Shown: positions 15,332 to 33,521 of the stretch, one piece after another
How positions within the stretch are numbered: position 1 is the first letter of the stretch
Layout: every line of letters starts with the position of its first letter
Notes under the pieces: generated by a model
What the model saw: the letters and a program-made list of their open reading frames with translations, nothing else
Databases searched by the model: none
What the model was told of the DNA's origin: nothing
DNA from: Sorangiineae bacterium NIC37A_2
GTDB lineage: Bacteria; Myxococcota_A; Polyangia; Polyangiales; Polyangiaceae
Direction: 5' to 3'
Assembly: GCA_002085155.1 (NCBI GenBank)
Contig: NASX01000008.1
Span: 1 to 64,000, forward strand
DNA: 64,000 nt
Position numbers and translations under genes: made by a program

Positions 15332-16941
15332 TAAAGAGCGCTCCCTCGGAGCTTCGGTCGCGTCCCGATCTTCTGCACGGTGTCCCGCAGGTAGTCGGGG
15401 GAGAGGTCCGGGTGGTCGACGGTGAAGTGGAGTCCGCGGCTCTCCTTGCGCATCTGAGCTGCAGCGATCACGAGCGAGGCCACGAGCTGAATGTTGCGGA
15501 GCTCAAGGAGATCTCGGGTGATGAAGTGCTTCCAGTAGTATTCGAGGATCTCGCCTTCGAGCACGTTCACCCGGCGCTCGGCGCGGCGGAGGCGCGAGTC
15601 GCTGCGCACGATGCCGACGTAGTTCCACATGAGGCGTCGAAGCTCGTCCCAGTTCTGGGTCACGATCACGGCTTCGTTGCTCGGTCCAGCGTCCCCGGTC
15701 TCCCAGGGGGGCACGGAGGGCTCCGGACGACTGCGCAGCTCTTTGATCTGCTCGCGCAGCTTCTGGGCAGCGCGGTCAGCAAAGACGAGCCCTTCGAGGA
15801 GCGAGTTCGAAGCGAGACGGTTCGCGCCATGGAGGCCGGTACAGGCGGTCTCACCGATCACCCACAAGCCCGGGAGACTGCTCCGCCCCCACAGATCACT
15901 GGTCACGCCGCCGCACATGTAGTGCGCCGCGGGCACGACGGGGATCGGATCCCGCGTCATGTCGATGCCGTACGAGAGCGTGCGCTCGTAGATGTTCGGG
16001 AAGCGGTCCCGGATGTAGCTGGCCGGTTTGTGCGTGATGTCGAGCAGGACGAACTCGCTGCCGGTTCGCTTCATTTCGAAGTCGATAGCGCGCGCCACGA
16101 TGTCCCGGGGCGCCAGATCCGCGAGCTCGTGGTGCTTCGGCATGAAAGCTTCACCGGACGGCAGCCGGAGCACGGCCCCTTCCCCGCGGAGCGCTTCGCT
16201 GACGAGAAAACTCTTGGCGCGAGGCTCGTAGAGCACCGTCGGGTGGAACTGGAAGAACTCCATGTTCGCGACCTCGGCCCCTGCGCGGAACGCCATCGCC
16301 ACTCCGTCACCTGTTGCGACATCGGGATTCGAAGTGTAGAGATATACCTTCCCGGCGCCGCCCGTCGCGAGAATGGTCGCGCGGGCTCGGATCGTCTCGA
16401 CGCGCCCCGTGCGCTCATCGAGAACATACGCGCCCACACACTCGTCGGGCATACCGAAGCGGCTGTGCACGATGAGATCGACGCCCATACGCCACTCGCA
16501 CACCTCGATATTTTCGTGCTTGAGGACCGCTTCCGTCAGGGCCCGCTGGATTTCGGCGCCCGTCAGATCTGCGGCGTGCGCTACGCGCCGCTCGCTGTGC
16601 CCGCCTTCGCGGGCCAGATCGAGCTCTCCGTCCTCCCGACGCGAAAACTGTGCGCCCACGTCCATGAGCCATTTGAGGACACGGGGGCCCTCCGTCACAC
16701 AAAGGTCGACAGTCTCCGCGCGACAGAGCCCCGCGCCCGCCGTGTGAGTGTCTCGGATGTGCTTTTCGAAGCTATCGAGCGGATCGAGCACCGCTGCGAT
16801 GCCTCCTTGAGCCCGGGCACTCGCTGAATCCTCGAGGCTTCGCTTCGTCACCAAGAGGACGGTGCCGAACTCTGCTGCGCGAAGCGCAAAGGAGAGGCCG
16901 GCCACGCCACCGCCGAGGACAAGAAAATCAGGGGACGACAT
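15331..16941 (-). CDS. nadB: L-aspartate oxidase NadB
   Basis: NadB oxidises L-aspartate to iminoaspartate, the first step of de novo NAD synthesis. Starting at MSSPDFLVLGGGVAG gives 536 residues, the usual length; an upstream in-frame extension lacks conserved sequence. Visible are the FAD-binding GGGVAG (residues 10-15), ARAQGGIAAV, HATG-type ATILATGGAGKVY, EFFQFHPTVLYEP, SEALRGEGAVL and GLHGANRLASNSLLEGLVF, all typical of the fumarate reductase/NadB family. nadA and nadC are not in the window. It is the first gene of a three-gene unit and is divergent from etfB. Confidence 0.95.
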   Translation of the reverse strand: MSSPDFLVLGGGVAGLSFALRAAEFGTVLLVTKRSLEDSASARAQGGIAAVLDPLDSFEKHIRDTHTAGAGLCRAETVDLCVTEGPRVLKWLMDVGAQFSRREDGELDLAREGGHSERRVAHAADLTGAEIQRALTEAVLKHENIEVCEWRMGVDLIVHSRFGMPDECVGAYVLDERTGRVETIRARATILATGGAGKVYLYTSNPDVATGDGVAMAFRAGAEVANMEFFQFHPTVLYEPRAKSFLVSEALRGEGAVLRLPSGEAFMPKHHELADLAPRDIVARAIDFEMKRTGSEFVLLDITHKPASYIRDRFPNIYERTLSYGIDMTRDPIPVVPAAHYMCGGVTSDLWGRSSLPGLWVIGETACTGLHGANRLASNSLLEGLVFADRAAQKLREQIKELRSRPEPSVPPWETGDAGPSNEAVIVTQNWDELRRLMWNYVGIVRSDSRLRRAERRVNVLEGEILEYYWKHFITRDLLELRNIQLVASLVIAAAQMRKESRGLHFTVDHPDLSPDYLRDTVQKIGTRPKLRGSAL

Positions 16942-28716: not shown

Positions 28717-28791
28717 GCGGGAATAACTCAGCGGTAGAGTGCGACCTTGCCAAGGTCGAAGTCGTGAGTTCGAATCTCATTTCCCGCTCCA
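28717..28791 (+). tRNA. tRNA-Gly (anticodon GCC)
   Basis: Acceptor GCGGGAA pairs with TTCCCGC, anticodon loop TTGCCAA reads GGC/GGT glycine codons, and the T-arm GTGAG-TTCGAAT-CTCAT is intact except for one G-T pair. Discriminator T and CCA are encoded. Confidence 0.95.
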
Positions 28792-29007: not shown

Positions 29008-30420
29008 TTACTTGCCGCCGCAGGTGTCAAACTTGCCGGCGAGGGCGAGGAGGCTGAGCGCCTTGAGCATGCGCGGGAAGTATTCGCCGTCGTGGTCACC
29101 TTCGCCTGCGGGGATCGCGACGAGCTCCGCTGCGAAGGACTCCACTGTTTCGGGGTCGAGGGTCATCGCGCCGACAGCAAAAGGACCGACGTTGATGGCG
29201 GTGTGATCTTCGGGGCTCGGCGCCTCGTCGTCCGTGGAGCCGTCCAGGTTGTACCACTGGACGGTGTTCTTGATGCCGACCGACTTCACCCAGTTCGTGA
29301 CCTTGTCGTTCCAGGCCTTCGCCTCAGTCTTTCCGTGCCAGAGATAGTCGACAGCGATGCGCCAAGGAGTGCGCGCGGCGTCGTCACCGTAGGAGGCGGA
29401 GCGAATGTAGGCGTTATGGCAGCCCGCGGTCGCGTCGCCTCCGCCTGCCGAGCCCCAGTTGCGCACGAGGCCGGTCTCCGGATGAGAAGCAGCGGCGAGC
29501 AGCGGGTAGCTGTCGTCAGCGGCTCGATTCCAGAAGTCAGCGTCCTCGGGGGTCACCTTCGCGAACTCGCGATAGTAGGCGGGAGCGAAATAGGAGTAGT
29601 TCACGCACCCTCCGCCCATCATATCGAACCAGCTCGAGTCGCCAGGCTGAAGGACGAGCTTGCCGTTATCCTCCATGAACATGTGCTCTTTGGTATCCTT
29701 GATGACCGGCTTGGCCTCTTCGAGATACTTGTTATCCCCCCAGCGACAGGACGCCTGGATCAGCGCCATCGCGACGTCGAGATCGCCGTCGGAGGCCGCG
29801 TTGTCAGGATAGTCGTTGTATTTCGTGTCCCAGTGGGCGTCGCAGCCGTAACGGAGCCAATGCATCAAGGCGCGCCCTTCGACGCGCATGCGCTTCGAGT
29901 AGGCCAAGAGTCCATCAAAAGCTTCCCGGTCATCGAAGGCGACGGTCAGGAGCATGCCGTAGCCAATACCTTCCGAGACCGTCGCGTCGAGCTTGGCGTT
30001 CTCCCAGCGAACGCGGTGCGCCCCGTCGCCACAATCTTCGAGGTGAATCTCCTTCCAGACCTCGTAAGCCTCCCGAGCGTCTTCGAGCCCCACACTCTCA
30101 GGACGGAAGCCCCAAGGCAGATCCTGAACAACACGGGCGCCACCGGTGCCCTCTGCCCCGCCGGTTCCGGGTGCCGCGCCCCCGGACCCACCGCCGCCGG
30201 CCCCCGGATCGACAGTGCTCCCGGCTCCCTCGCCATTCATGCCTCCGCTTCCTTGTCCGGGAGCAGAGCCCGACGCGCTCATCCCACTCCCCCCAGTGGG
30301 ACCCGTGACCCCAGCGCCTCCAGAAGCGCCCGGCTGCATCGGTCCGGAAGTTCCGTCGTTCGGGGAGCAGTTCGCGAGAATGACGACAGGAAAGGCGAGA
30401 AAAGGGAGAAAGCGCTTCAT
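29008..30420 (-). CDS. Glycoside hydrolase family 8 lipoprotein
   Basis: The ATG at 30420 gives 470 residues with a signal peptide and lipobox LANC (Cys18). Residues about 19-96 are a Gly/Ser/Pro-rich linker. From about residue 100 the GH8 (alpha/alpha)6 fold is recognisable: VSEGIGYGMLL with the catalytic acid Glu150, FDGLLAYSKRM, and ASDGDLDVAMAL with Asp211 and Asp213 near the active site. GH8 enzymes hydrolyse beta-1,4-glucan, xylan or chitosan, but the substrate cannot be fixed from sequence. It would act tethered to the cell surface or periplasm. A long array of 19-bp repeats lies about 200 bases upstream. Confidence 0.9.
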   Translation of the reverse strand: MKRFLPFLAFPVVILANCSPNDGTSGPMQPGASGGAGVTGPTGGSGMSASGSAPGQGSGGMNGEGAGSTVDPGAGGGGSGGAAPGTGGAEGTGGARVVQDLPWGFRPESVGLEDAREAYEVWKEIHLEDCGDGAHRVRWENAKLDATVSEGIGYGMLLTVAFDDREAFDGLLAYSKRMRVEGRALMHWLRYGCDAHWDTKYNDYPDNAASDGDLDVAMALIQASCRWGDNKYLEEAKPVIKDTKEHMFMEDNGKLVLQPGDSSWFDMMGGGCVNYSYFAPAYYREFAKVTPEDADFWNRAADDSYPLLAAASHPETGLVRNWGSAGGGDATAGCHNAYIRSASYGDDAARTPWRIAVDYLWHGKTEAKAWNDKVTNWVKSVGIKNTVQWYNLDGSTDDEAPSPEDHTAINVGPFAVGAMTLDPETVESFAAELVAIPAGEGDHDGEYFPRMLKALSLLALAGKFDTCGGK

Positions 30421-30859
30421 CGAAGGAACCAAGTTATTGAAGCCAGAGTGTAGCGACGGCCGGATGTTAGACCAACGCTCTCCGGCCCTCTGGTCGAAGA
30501 AAAACGCAGCGCTTCCGCGCCTGTCTCAGGACAACTTCTCCTCAGCCAGAAAAACTACAACGAGACGGGAGCCGAGTGTCGCGGAAAGCAGACTTTCACG
30601 AACCGCTCACGGACCTCCACCGCTCAGGTTCGATACTCACGCTCAGGTTCGATACTCACGCTCAGGTTCGATACTCACGCTCAGGTTCGATACTCACGCT
30701 CAGGTTCGATACTCACGCTCAGGTTCGATACTCCCTCGACGCCTTCAACGCCCCCATACTTCGCTCACGTGAAGACCTGCCGCGCTCCCGCACGCGGCGC
30801 AGGCCGCACACGCCTGACTTCCGGGGAGCACTCCCGCGCCTGCGCGCCCAGTTTCCCGC
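30421..30859. other. Gene-free stretch with tandem repeat
   Basis: About 440 bases between the SpoIIAA-like gene stop and the GH8 gene start, both on the minus strand. I see no supported gene. The main content is the 19-bp tandem repeat at 30622-30733. The short open frames through it come only from the repeat. Confidence 0.7.
30622..30733. repeat. 19-bp tandem direct repeat, about six copies
   Basis: Five exact copies of GCTCAGGTTCGATACTCAC follow one another without spacers (30622-30640, 30641-30659, 30660-30678, 30679-30697, 30698-30716), with a sixth copy matching for 17 bases at 30717-30733. The unit length is about two helical turns. It may be a cluster of regulator sites for the GH8 gene or a variable-number repeat. 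Confidence 0.95.
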
Positions 30860-31234
30860 TCATCCGCAAACCCAGCTCTTCGCCTTGAGCTGATGCTCGA
30901 AGGTGAAAAGCAGGATTTCTCCGGGCGCGAGCCATCCGAAGAGCACAATCGCCCGCGCGAGCCACTCGAGATCGGTCACAACAGCGATCTTCTTCCACTG
31001 GTCGCGGTGGGACAAGCCGTACTCGAAGCCCATCTTCAGGTCCTCCCAAATCGCGCCCTTCTCCTGTCCCACGAAGTCGTGGCCGACCTCGAGGTAAACT
31101 CGAACCTCACTGCCGTCATCGAAGGCCCTCCGCACCTTCGGCATCAGCACGTTCTCATAGTCCTCGCGGGTCAGCGTGCCTTTCAGACGAAAGGCGAGCA
31201 CGTCGGACGGGAAGTCGGGCAGTACCTCGATCAT
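30860..31234 (-). CDS. SpoIIAA/STAS-like domain protein
   Basis: A 124-residue cytoplasmic protein that looks like the SpoIIAA-like/SEC14-related family: an initial beta strand (VLAFRLKGTLTREDYE), a central helix region with VYLEVGHDFVG and WEDLKMGFEYGLSHRDQWKKIAVVTD, and a terminal helix. In this family such proteins are often small stand-alone domains of unknown role; there is no anti-sigma partner nearby. It is not a canonical phosphorylated anti-anti-sigma factor, since no conserved Ser-containing DSS motif is seen. Length is typical. Confidence 0.8.
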   Translation of the reverse strand: MIEVLPDFPSDVLAFRLKGTLTREDYENVLMPKVRRAFDDGSEVRVYLEVGHDFVGQEKGAIWEDLKMGFEYGLSHRDQWKKIAVVTDLEWLARAIVLFGWLAPGEILLFTFEHQLKAKSWVCG

Positions 31235-31347
31235 GCCTTACCTTAGCCGAAAAGCGGCCTTGCCGAAGCCGCCCATCGCGCGCGTTTCTTTTCCCTCATC
31301 AAGAGGGCGCGCAGTTCCTGCGGGGGGGGCGCCAGCTCAGAGAAAAA

Positions 31348-32202
31348 TCAGGGAGAGAGATCGATCTGCTCCGCAGGAGCCACCGACCCCAAGAACAAGT
31401 CTGCGACCTTCTGAAAACCTGAAGGAAGGTCCGTCACGAGGAGCTGAAGTGTGCCGGGCACATCTTTCGAATGCGCTGGGAACAATCGGCCGTTTCGAAT
31501 CCATTCCTGAAGTGCCTCGGCCGTGGCCGATGCGCTGTCGACGACAGGAATCGGTCGCCCCGCGAGACGAGCGGCGACGCGCTCAAAAACCTCCCGGAGA
31601 AGCGGGTAATGAGTGCAACCGAGAACGATGACTCCCGCGCCCCGTTCGATGAGCGGAGTGAGATAACGCTCGACCGCGAGCTCTGGCACCGTCCCGCTGA
31701 GCCAGCCCTCTTCGACCAAAGGAACGAGCAAGGGCGCCGGTTCCGCGATGACCTCGAGACGGGTCGAGAGACTCGAGACGGCCCGCGGATAAGCTCCCGA
31801 GCGGATCGTCCCCGCCGTACCCACCACGCCCACTCGGGGAGGCGGTCCCGAAGTGCGCTCCGCCTCGAGAAGAGCTGCCCGCACGCCCGCCTGAGCGCCC
31901 GGCTCGACGACGCCCATGACAGGAATGTCGAGCTCCGCCTCGAGGATTTCGAGGGCCACTGCGCTCACCGTATTGCAGGCGAGGACGAGAGCTTTGATGC
32001 CCCTTTGGGTCAGCTCGGAGGCCGCGCGGCGCGCATAACGGATGACCGTCTCAGCAGAGCGGGTTCCATAGGGGACGCGCGCAGTGTCTCCGAGATAGAG
32101 GATATTCTCCTCAGGAAACGCCTCACGCAGAGCCCGGACGACCGTTAGGCCGCCGAGCCCTGAATCGAACACGCCGATCGGCGCGTCGCTGTGCACGGTC
32201 AC
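31348..32202 (-). CDS. murI: Glutamate racemase MurI
   Basis: MurI makes D-glutamate for peptidoglycan. The 284-residue protein has the N-terminal GVFDSGLGGLTVVRAL, the two catalytic Cys in VLACNTVS (Cys76) and VLGCTHYPLL (Cys196), and the GTAGTIRSGAY region. Its GTG start overlaps the hom stop (GTGA), implying coupled translation with homoserine dehydrogenase. Length matches the family. Confidence 0.95.
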   Translation of the reverse strand: MTVHSDAPIGVFDSGLGGLTVVRALREAFPEENILYLGDTARVPYGTRSAETVIRYARRAASELTQRGIKALVLACNTVSAVALEILEAELDIPVMGVVEPGAQAGVRAALLEAERTSGPPPRVGVVGTAGTIRSGAYPRAVSSLSTRLEVIAEPAPLLVPLVEEGWLSGTVPELAVERYLTPLIERGAGVIVLGCTHYPLLREVFERVAARLAGRPIPVVDSASATAEALQEWIRNGRLFPAHSKDVPGTLQLLVTDLPSGFQKVADLFLGSVAPAEQIDLSP

Positions 32203-33521
32203 AGATCCTCAATGCGAATGAAACGACAGCTCTTGAGGAAGGGGGCGGACCGGACTTCCTCGAGAGCGCTCACGAGGTCGCCCTCGCGCGTCTCGTGGGT
32301 GATCATGAGAACCGACACGGGCTGACTGTCGCTCGTGTCCTCCTGGAACATCTCGGCGATGCTGATCCCGTGGCGCCCGAGCGCCGTCGCGATAGTGCCG
32401 AGGACACCCGGCGTGTCGTCGACGTCGAAGCGCAGGTAGTAGCGCGTGACGGTCTCGGCGAGGGGGAGCAGCTTGCGGGGACGCGCCACGATGGCGCGGG
32501 TCGAGAGGCCCCGCGCACCCTCTCGGCGGCTGCGAGACACGTCCACGAGATCGGCGACGACGCTCACCGCCGTCGGCAGGTCGCCGGCCCCGCGCCCCAC
32601 GAGGAGGCAGGGTCCGAGGGCTTTGCCTTGGATGAAGACGCAGTTCAAAACGCCGTCGATCGTCGCGACCACACTCGACTTCGGGACGAAGGTCGGGTGC
32701 GCCCGGAGCGAGATGGCGTCGCCCAGGTCGCGGCCGATCGCGAGGTGTTTGATGGCGTAGCCGAACCTCTCGGCGGCTGAGAAGTCGACGGCATCGAGGG
32801 CTGTGATGCCTTCGACGGAGATTTGGTCCGGCGTGAGGCGGGAGCCAAAAGCGAGCGTCGCGGCGACGATGAGCTTCTGGGCTGCATCGTGGCCCTCGAT
32901 GTCGAGGGTCGGGTCCGCCTCCGCATAACCGAGATCCTGAGCCTGCTTGAGGGCCGTCGCGAAGCTGAGCCCCTCCTGCTTCATCTTGGTCAGGATATAG
33001 TTCGAGGTGCCGTTCAGGATGCCGTGTAAGGACAGCACCTGGTCACCGGTGAGCGCTTCGCGCAGCGTGCGGATGATCGGGATGCCGCCGCCGACCGACG
33101 CTTCGAAGGCAAGATCGACGCGGCCACTCTGGGCCTTTTCGAGGAGGGCCGCGCCGTGCTGCGCGATGACGTACTTGTTGGCGCTGACGACAGCGAGTCC
33201 CTGGCTGAGCGCTCGCTCGATGTAAGAGCGCGCGGGCTCTTCGCCGCCCATGACCTCGACCACGACGTCGAGGTCGGGATCGCGAAAGACAGACTCAGCG
33301 TCGGTCGTGATGCGCAGGCCCTCCGCGGCGCGACTTCGCACTTTGTTCGGGTCACGGACGAGCACGTGAGCGATTTCGATGGGAGCTCCGACACGCTCCG
33401 TGATGGTGGCTTGGTTCGTCGAGAGCAGGTCCAAAACCCCGCCTCCGACGGTTCCGCAGCCGAGGAGCGCTACACGAATCGGCTTTCCTGGTAACGAAGG
33501 GCGATCGCTGTCGGAATTCAC
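32199..33521 (-). CDS. hom: Homoserine dehydrogenase with C-terminal ACT domain
   Basis: Hom reduces aspartate semialdehyde to homoserine on the way to threonine and methionine. The GTG at 33521 gives 440 residues, the usual length; the frame is open further upstream and overlaps the 3' end of the preceding lipoprotein gene, so I do not use that start. Rossmann site VALLGCGTVGGGV, SANKYVIA, EASVGGGIPII, GILNGTSNYIL and EADPTLDIEGHDAAQKL are all present. The last about 80 residues form an ACT domain, expected for threonine feedback. It precedes murI directly. Confidence 0.94.
   Translation of the reverse strand: MNSDSDRPSLPGKPIRVALLGCGTVGGGVLDLLSTNQATITERVGAPIEIAHVLVRDPNKVRSRAAEGLRITTDAESVFRDPDLDVVVEVMGGEEPARSYIERALSQGLAVVSANKYVIAQHGAALLEKAQSGRVDLAFEASVGGGIPIIRTLREALTGDQVLSLHGILNGTSNYILTKMKQEGLSFATALKQAQDLGYAEADPTLDIEGHDAAQKLIVAATLAFGSRLTPDQISVEGITALDAVDFSAAERFGYAIKHLAIGRDLGDAISLRAHPTFVPKSSVVATIDGVLNCVFIQGKALGPCLLVGRGAGDLPTAVSVVADLVDVSRSRREGARGLSTRAIVARPRKLLPLAETVTRYYLRFDVDDTPGVLGTIATALGRHGISIAEMFQEDTSDSQPVSVLMITHETREGDLVSALEEVRSAPFLKSCRFIRIEDL

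Follow-up and report, generated by a model that had tools for sequence, protein, structure and literature searches.

Introduction

Plasmid iterons are direct repeats, present in several copies, with a unit of about 20 bp. Minisatellites are defined as tandem repeats with a unit of 10–100 bp (PMC6868369), and variable segments with repeats shorter than 30 bp in bacterial genomes have been attributed to replication slippage (PMC2884548).

In this study, we are discussing a perfect 19-bp tandem array in a stretch of 64,000 nucleotides from Sorangiineae bacterium NIC37A_2 (contig NASX01000008.1, positions 1 to 64,000; "the window"), which is very probably an ordinary intergenic minisatellite that expanded by replication slippage and probably has no dedicated function.

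The array and its genomic setting

The array and the genes next to it are the following (coordinates of the window):

30621..30733, no strand assigned: perfect tandem array of the 19-bp unit CGCTCAGGTTCGATACTCA, 5.9 copies (Tandem Repeats Finder and sequence)
29008..30432, minus strand: GH8 glycosidase gene (PF01270, 150 bits)
30860..31234, minus strand: SpoIIAA-like gene (PF11964)
31348..32202, minus strand: glutamate racemase-like (MurI) gene (PF01177)

Tandem Repeats Finder reports 100% matches and no indels, confirming the original prediction of a 19-bp tandem repeat with five exact copies and a partial one, joined without spacers; of the predicted coordinates, 30622–30733, the end stands, while the start lies one base earlier. 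The 113-bp array, which does not touch a contig end, is composed of five full copies plus 18 of the 19 bases of a sixth, with identity at all 19 unit positions. Allowing up to three mismatches, the unit matches six sites in the window versus 0.02 on average in 100 dinucleotide-preserving shuffles, and a simple independent-base estimate puts the chance of such a run anywhere in the genome at about 4e-45. The array is far beyond chance, and its head-to-tail copies of a unit within 10–100 bp are those of a minisatellite.

The array is located upstream of the GH8 gene, whose start is 188–200 bp away; the stop codon of the SpoIIAA-like gene is about 126 bp away. The gap between both genes amounts to 427 bases (30433–30859) if the GH8 open reading frame begins at its TTG, or to 439 bases if it begins at the ATG four codons downstream. 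The predicted placement upstream of a GH8 gene, in a gap put at 440 bases, agrees with the PF01270 assignment. The GH8 product is probably a secreted polysaccharide hydrolase, and its N-terminus, judged by eye, appears lipoprotein-like.

Distribution of the unit and of the locus

In the own 5.0-Mb assembly, the unit at up to three mismatches is present in the six array copies and at three other sites, each with three mismatches, compared with one match for a reversed-pattern control; beyond these, the recurrence elsewhere in the genome that had been considered is not seen. Each of the three is a solitary match within an open frame (390, 516 and 314 codons), and none, therefore, marks a second array. 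Adjacent units (31-base pattern of 1.6 units, up to three mismatches) were detected in one of 108 family genomes, namely its own, and in none of the 107 others; the array is missing from both other genomes of the genus, with the species represented by one genome in this comparison. Two exact units retrieved no record from genome_contigs and one exact unit no viral contig, both being collections that may omit very near genomes. The phage collection gave no match, and the plasmid collection one weak match at chance level, outside the array.

The surrounding 5.1 kb of DNA were compared with the other two genomes of the genus (G001 and G002). G001 retains the genes for MurI and homoserine dehydrogenase (window 31520–33486, 70% identity), with an FAD-linked oxidase gene on the other strand following MurI; neither SpoIIAA, GH8 nor the array is present beside them, and the 20-kb stretch concerned (L048) is devoid of exact arrays with a period of at least 8. 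In G002, the tRNA-Gly region is the sole match. Even between members of the genus, therefore, the array segment is not the same. In both congeners, the SpoIIAA-like protein has no more than weak relatives (27–30% identity). A tRNA-Gly gene is found at 28717–28791, between UvrA and GH8; it adjoins the segment missing from the matching place in G001 and could mark an insertion site.

As a pattern method found no GH8 relatives in genome_contigs, the GH8 comparison rests on a search of 59 genomes, 12 of which matched, own genome included. Nineteen loci from this search (L011–L029; a subset of the listed GH8 matches, some of them weak) have no perfect array with three or more copies; one of them, L016, has two arrays of a 15-bp unit with 2.6 and 2.3 copies. 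Conservation of the array near GH8 genes in relatives is found neither at these 19 loci nor in any of the 107 other family genomes; together with the lack of a further occurrence in the own genome, this is the outcome that the original prediction had named as refuting it.

Other tandem arrays as background

For background, we sampled 636,180 bases from the own genome, window included (12.7% of the genome; 572 kb outside the window). The stretches are non-random, having been selected in part for GH8 paralogues or weak unit matches and in part by contig number, and the resulting rate is rough. The sample contains 33 perfect arrays (at least two copies, period 10–120), six of these with at least three copies. 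Three arrays, the 19-bp array included, combine about three or more copies with a period not divisible by three; the other two are:

L059 (G000:C40), 16648–16743: perfect array of a 13-bp unit, 7.4 copies, overlapping the stop codon of a phosphofructokinase-family gene
L076, 15884–15961: perfect array of a 26-bp unit, 3.0 copies, overlapping the 3' end of a prephenate dehydrogenase gene

Two such arrays are present in 95,397 bases of G001 (13 bp, 3.5 copies; 16 bp, 5.6 copies), and one site with a 16-bp unit in two overlapping rows was found in 200,000 bases of G021, which belongs to another genus of the family. By eye, the units of these arrays are unrelated to each other and to the 19-bp unit. 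The presence in the genus of several short, perfect arrays that are unrelated to each other calls for caution against a regulatory reading of any one of them. The arrays at L076 15884–15961, L104 9775–9863 and L091 58–158 (units of 26, 16 and 16 bp) lie at gene 3' ends or immediately beyond them; for L091, this is a judgement by eye based on a stop codon close by.

Alternative explanations

An array of operator sites, through which a DNA-binding protein bound to the copies would control GH8, is an unlikely explanation, even if it is the least improbable of the alternatives. It would accord with the position upstream of GH8, where 188–200 bp are left for a promoter, and six identical copies might allow titration or cooperative binding. 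However, neither an array nor a close match of the unit is present at any other promoter, and the site was found neither at other targets nor upstream of the related genes at the 19 GH8-search loci. There is no inverted-repeat pair within the array (arms of at least 7), no sigma-70-type promoter, the only type covered by the search, in 30380–31300, and no classical transcription regulator among eight Pfam-scanned neighbouring proteins, one of which has a C4 zinc ribbon. The copies are also out of helical phase. The original prediction had taken the unit length as near two helical turns, so that a protein could bind each copy on the same face; yet, at 10.5 bp per turn, 19 bp correspond to 1.81 turns, two bases short of two turns. 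With a rotation of about 69 degrees per copy, the copies do not share a face, and the six wind almost once round the helix. Literature searches on helical phasing and on myxobacterial repeats brought up nothing of direct relevance to the locus. It is more doubtful still that the array tunes GH8 expression in a lineage-specific manner, with slippage altering the copy number of a putative protein-binding unit and, thereby, switching the hydrolase stepwise.

That the array belongs to a plus-strand open reading frame encoding a 19-residue peptide repeat is very improbable. None of the three plus-strand frames is interrupted within the array, which results in open reading frames of 208 and 105 amino acids, but this is expected of a unit that contains no stops and has a length not divisible by three. 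Neither matches a Pfam family at its cut-off, their third-position GC of 0.55 (the part outside GH8) and 0.68 (105-amino-acid frame) compares with 0.70–0.82 in neighbouring genes, and the 208-amino-acid frame overlaps GH8 in antisense. We give equally little weight to an assembly artefact, whether in the number of copies or in the presence of the array. While the genome is in 150 contigs and repeat number can be misjudged in short-read assembly (PMC6868369), the array is contig-internal and, at 113 bp, could be spanned by reads of usual length; the doubt attaches to the copy number alone. An RNA element or a terminator in the SpoIIAA–GH8 gap is the most remote of the readings. In its favour, the genes on either side of the array share one orientation, but the transcribed strand folds worse than shuffles (z = +2.02; other strand, z = -0.71), Rfam has no match at the array, and the single terminator-like site (30508–30521), with about one expected by chance, lies outside it. 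The motif GGTTCGA in the unit bears a resemblance to tRNA sequence; ARAGORN and Rfam detect no tRNA there.

Origin and significance of the array

For the minisatellite that we favour, a plausible course of events would begin with the tandem duplication of one 19-bp stretch. Strand slippage, or unequal recombination, may then have multiplied the duplicate to about six identical copies, at a place, over 180 bp upstream of the GH8 gene, where changes in length would do no harm. The identical copies, the confinement of the unit to one site and the unrelated arrays elsewhere fit a recent slippage expansion, and support comes also from the location of the array in a segment that G001 lacks at the syntenic position. 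The slippage mechanism, recency, neutrality and between-strain variability are what we infer from these features. The possibility of a variable-number repeat, raised in the original prediction, fits the array, with one genome of the species compared; the perfect identity of the copies would also fit strong selection on every base. By itself, the array matters little, but it could find use as a marker for typing the species.

Comparison with known repeat systems

CRISPR arrays resemble the array in the regularity of their repeats; here, the copies abut without spacers, and a CRISPR array was rejected. Like plasmid iterons, it repeats a unit of about 20 bp directly several times, but, in contrast to these, it was not found in plasmid or phage collections; plasmid-type iterons were likewise rejected, there being no gene for a Rep (replication initiator) protein among the eight Pfam-scanned neighbours. 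The minisatellites or VNTR loci used for MLVA typing vary between strains, whereas the present array is known from one genome of its species; with them it shares a perfect short tandem array, a unit of 10–100 bp, an intergenic position and a unit found at one locus.
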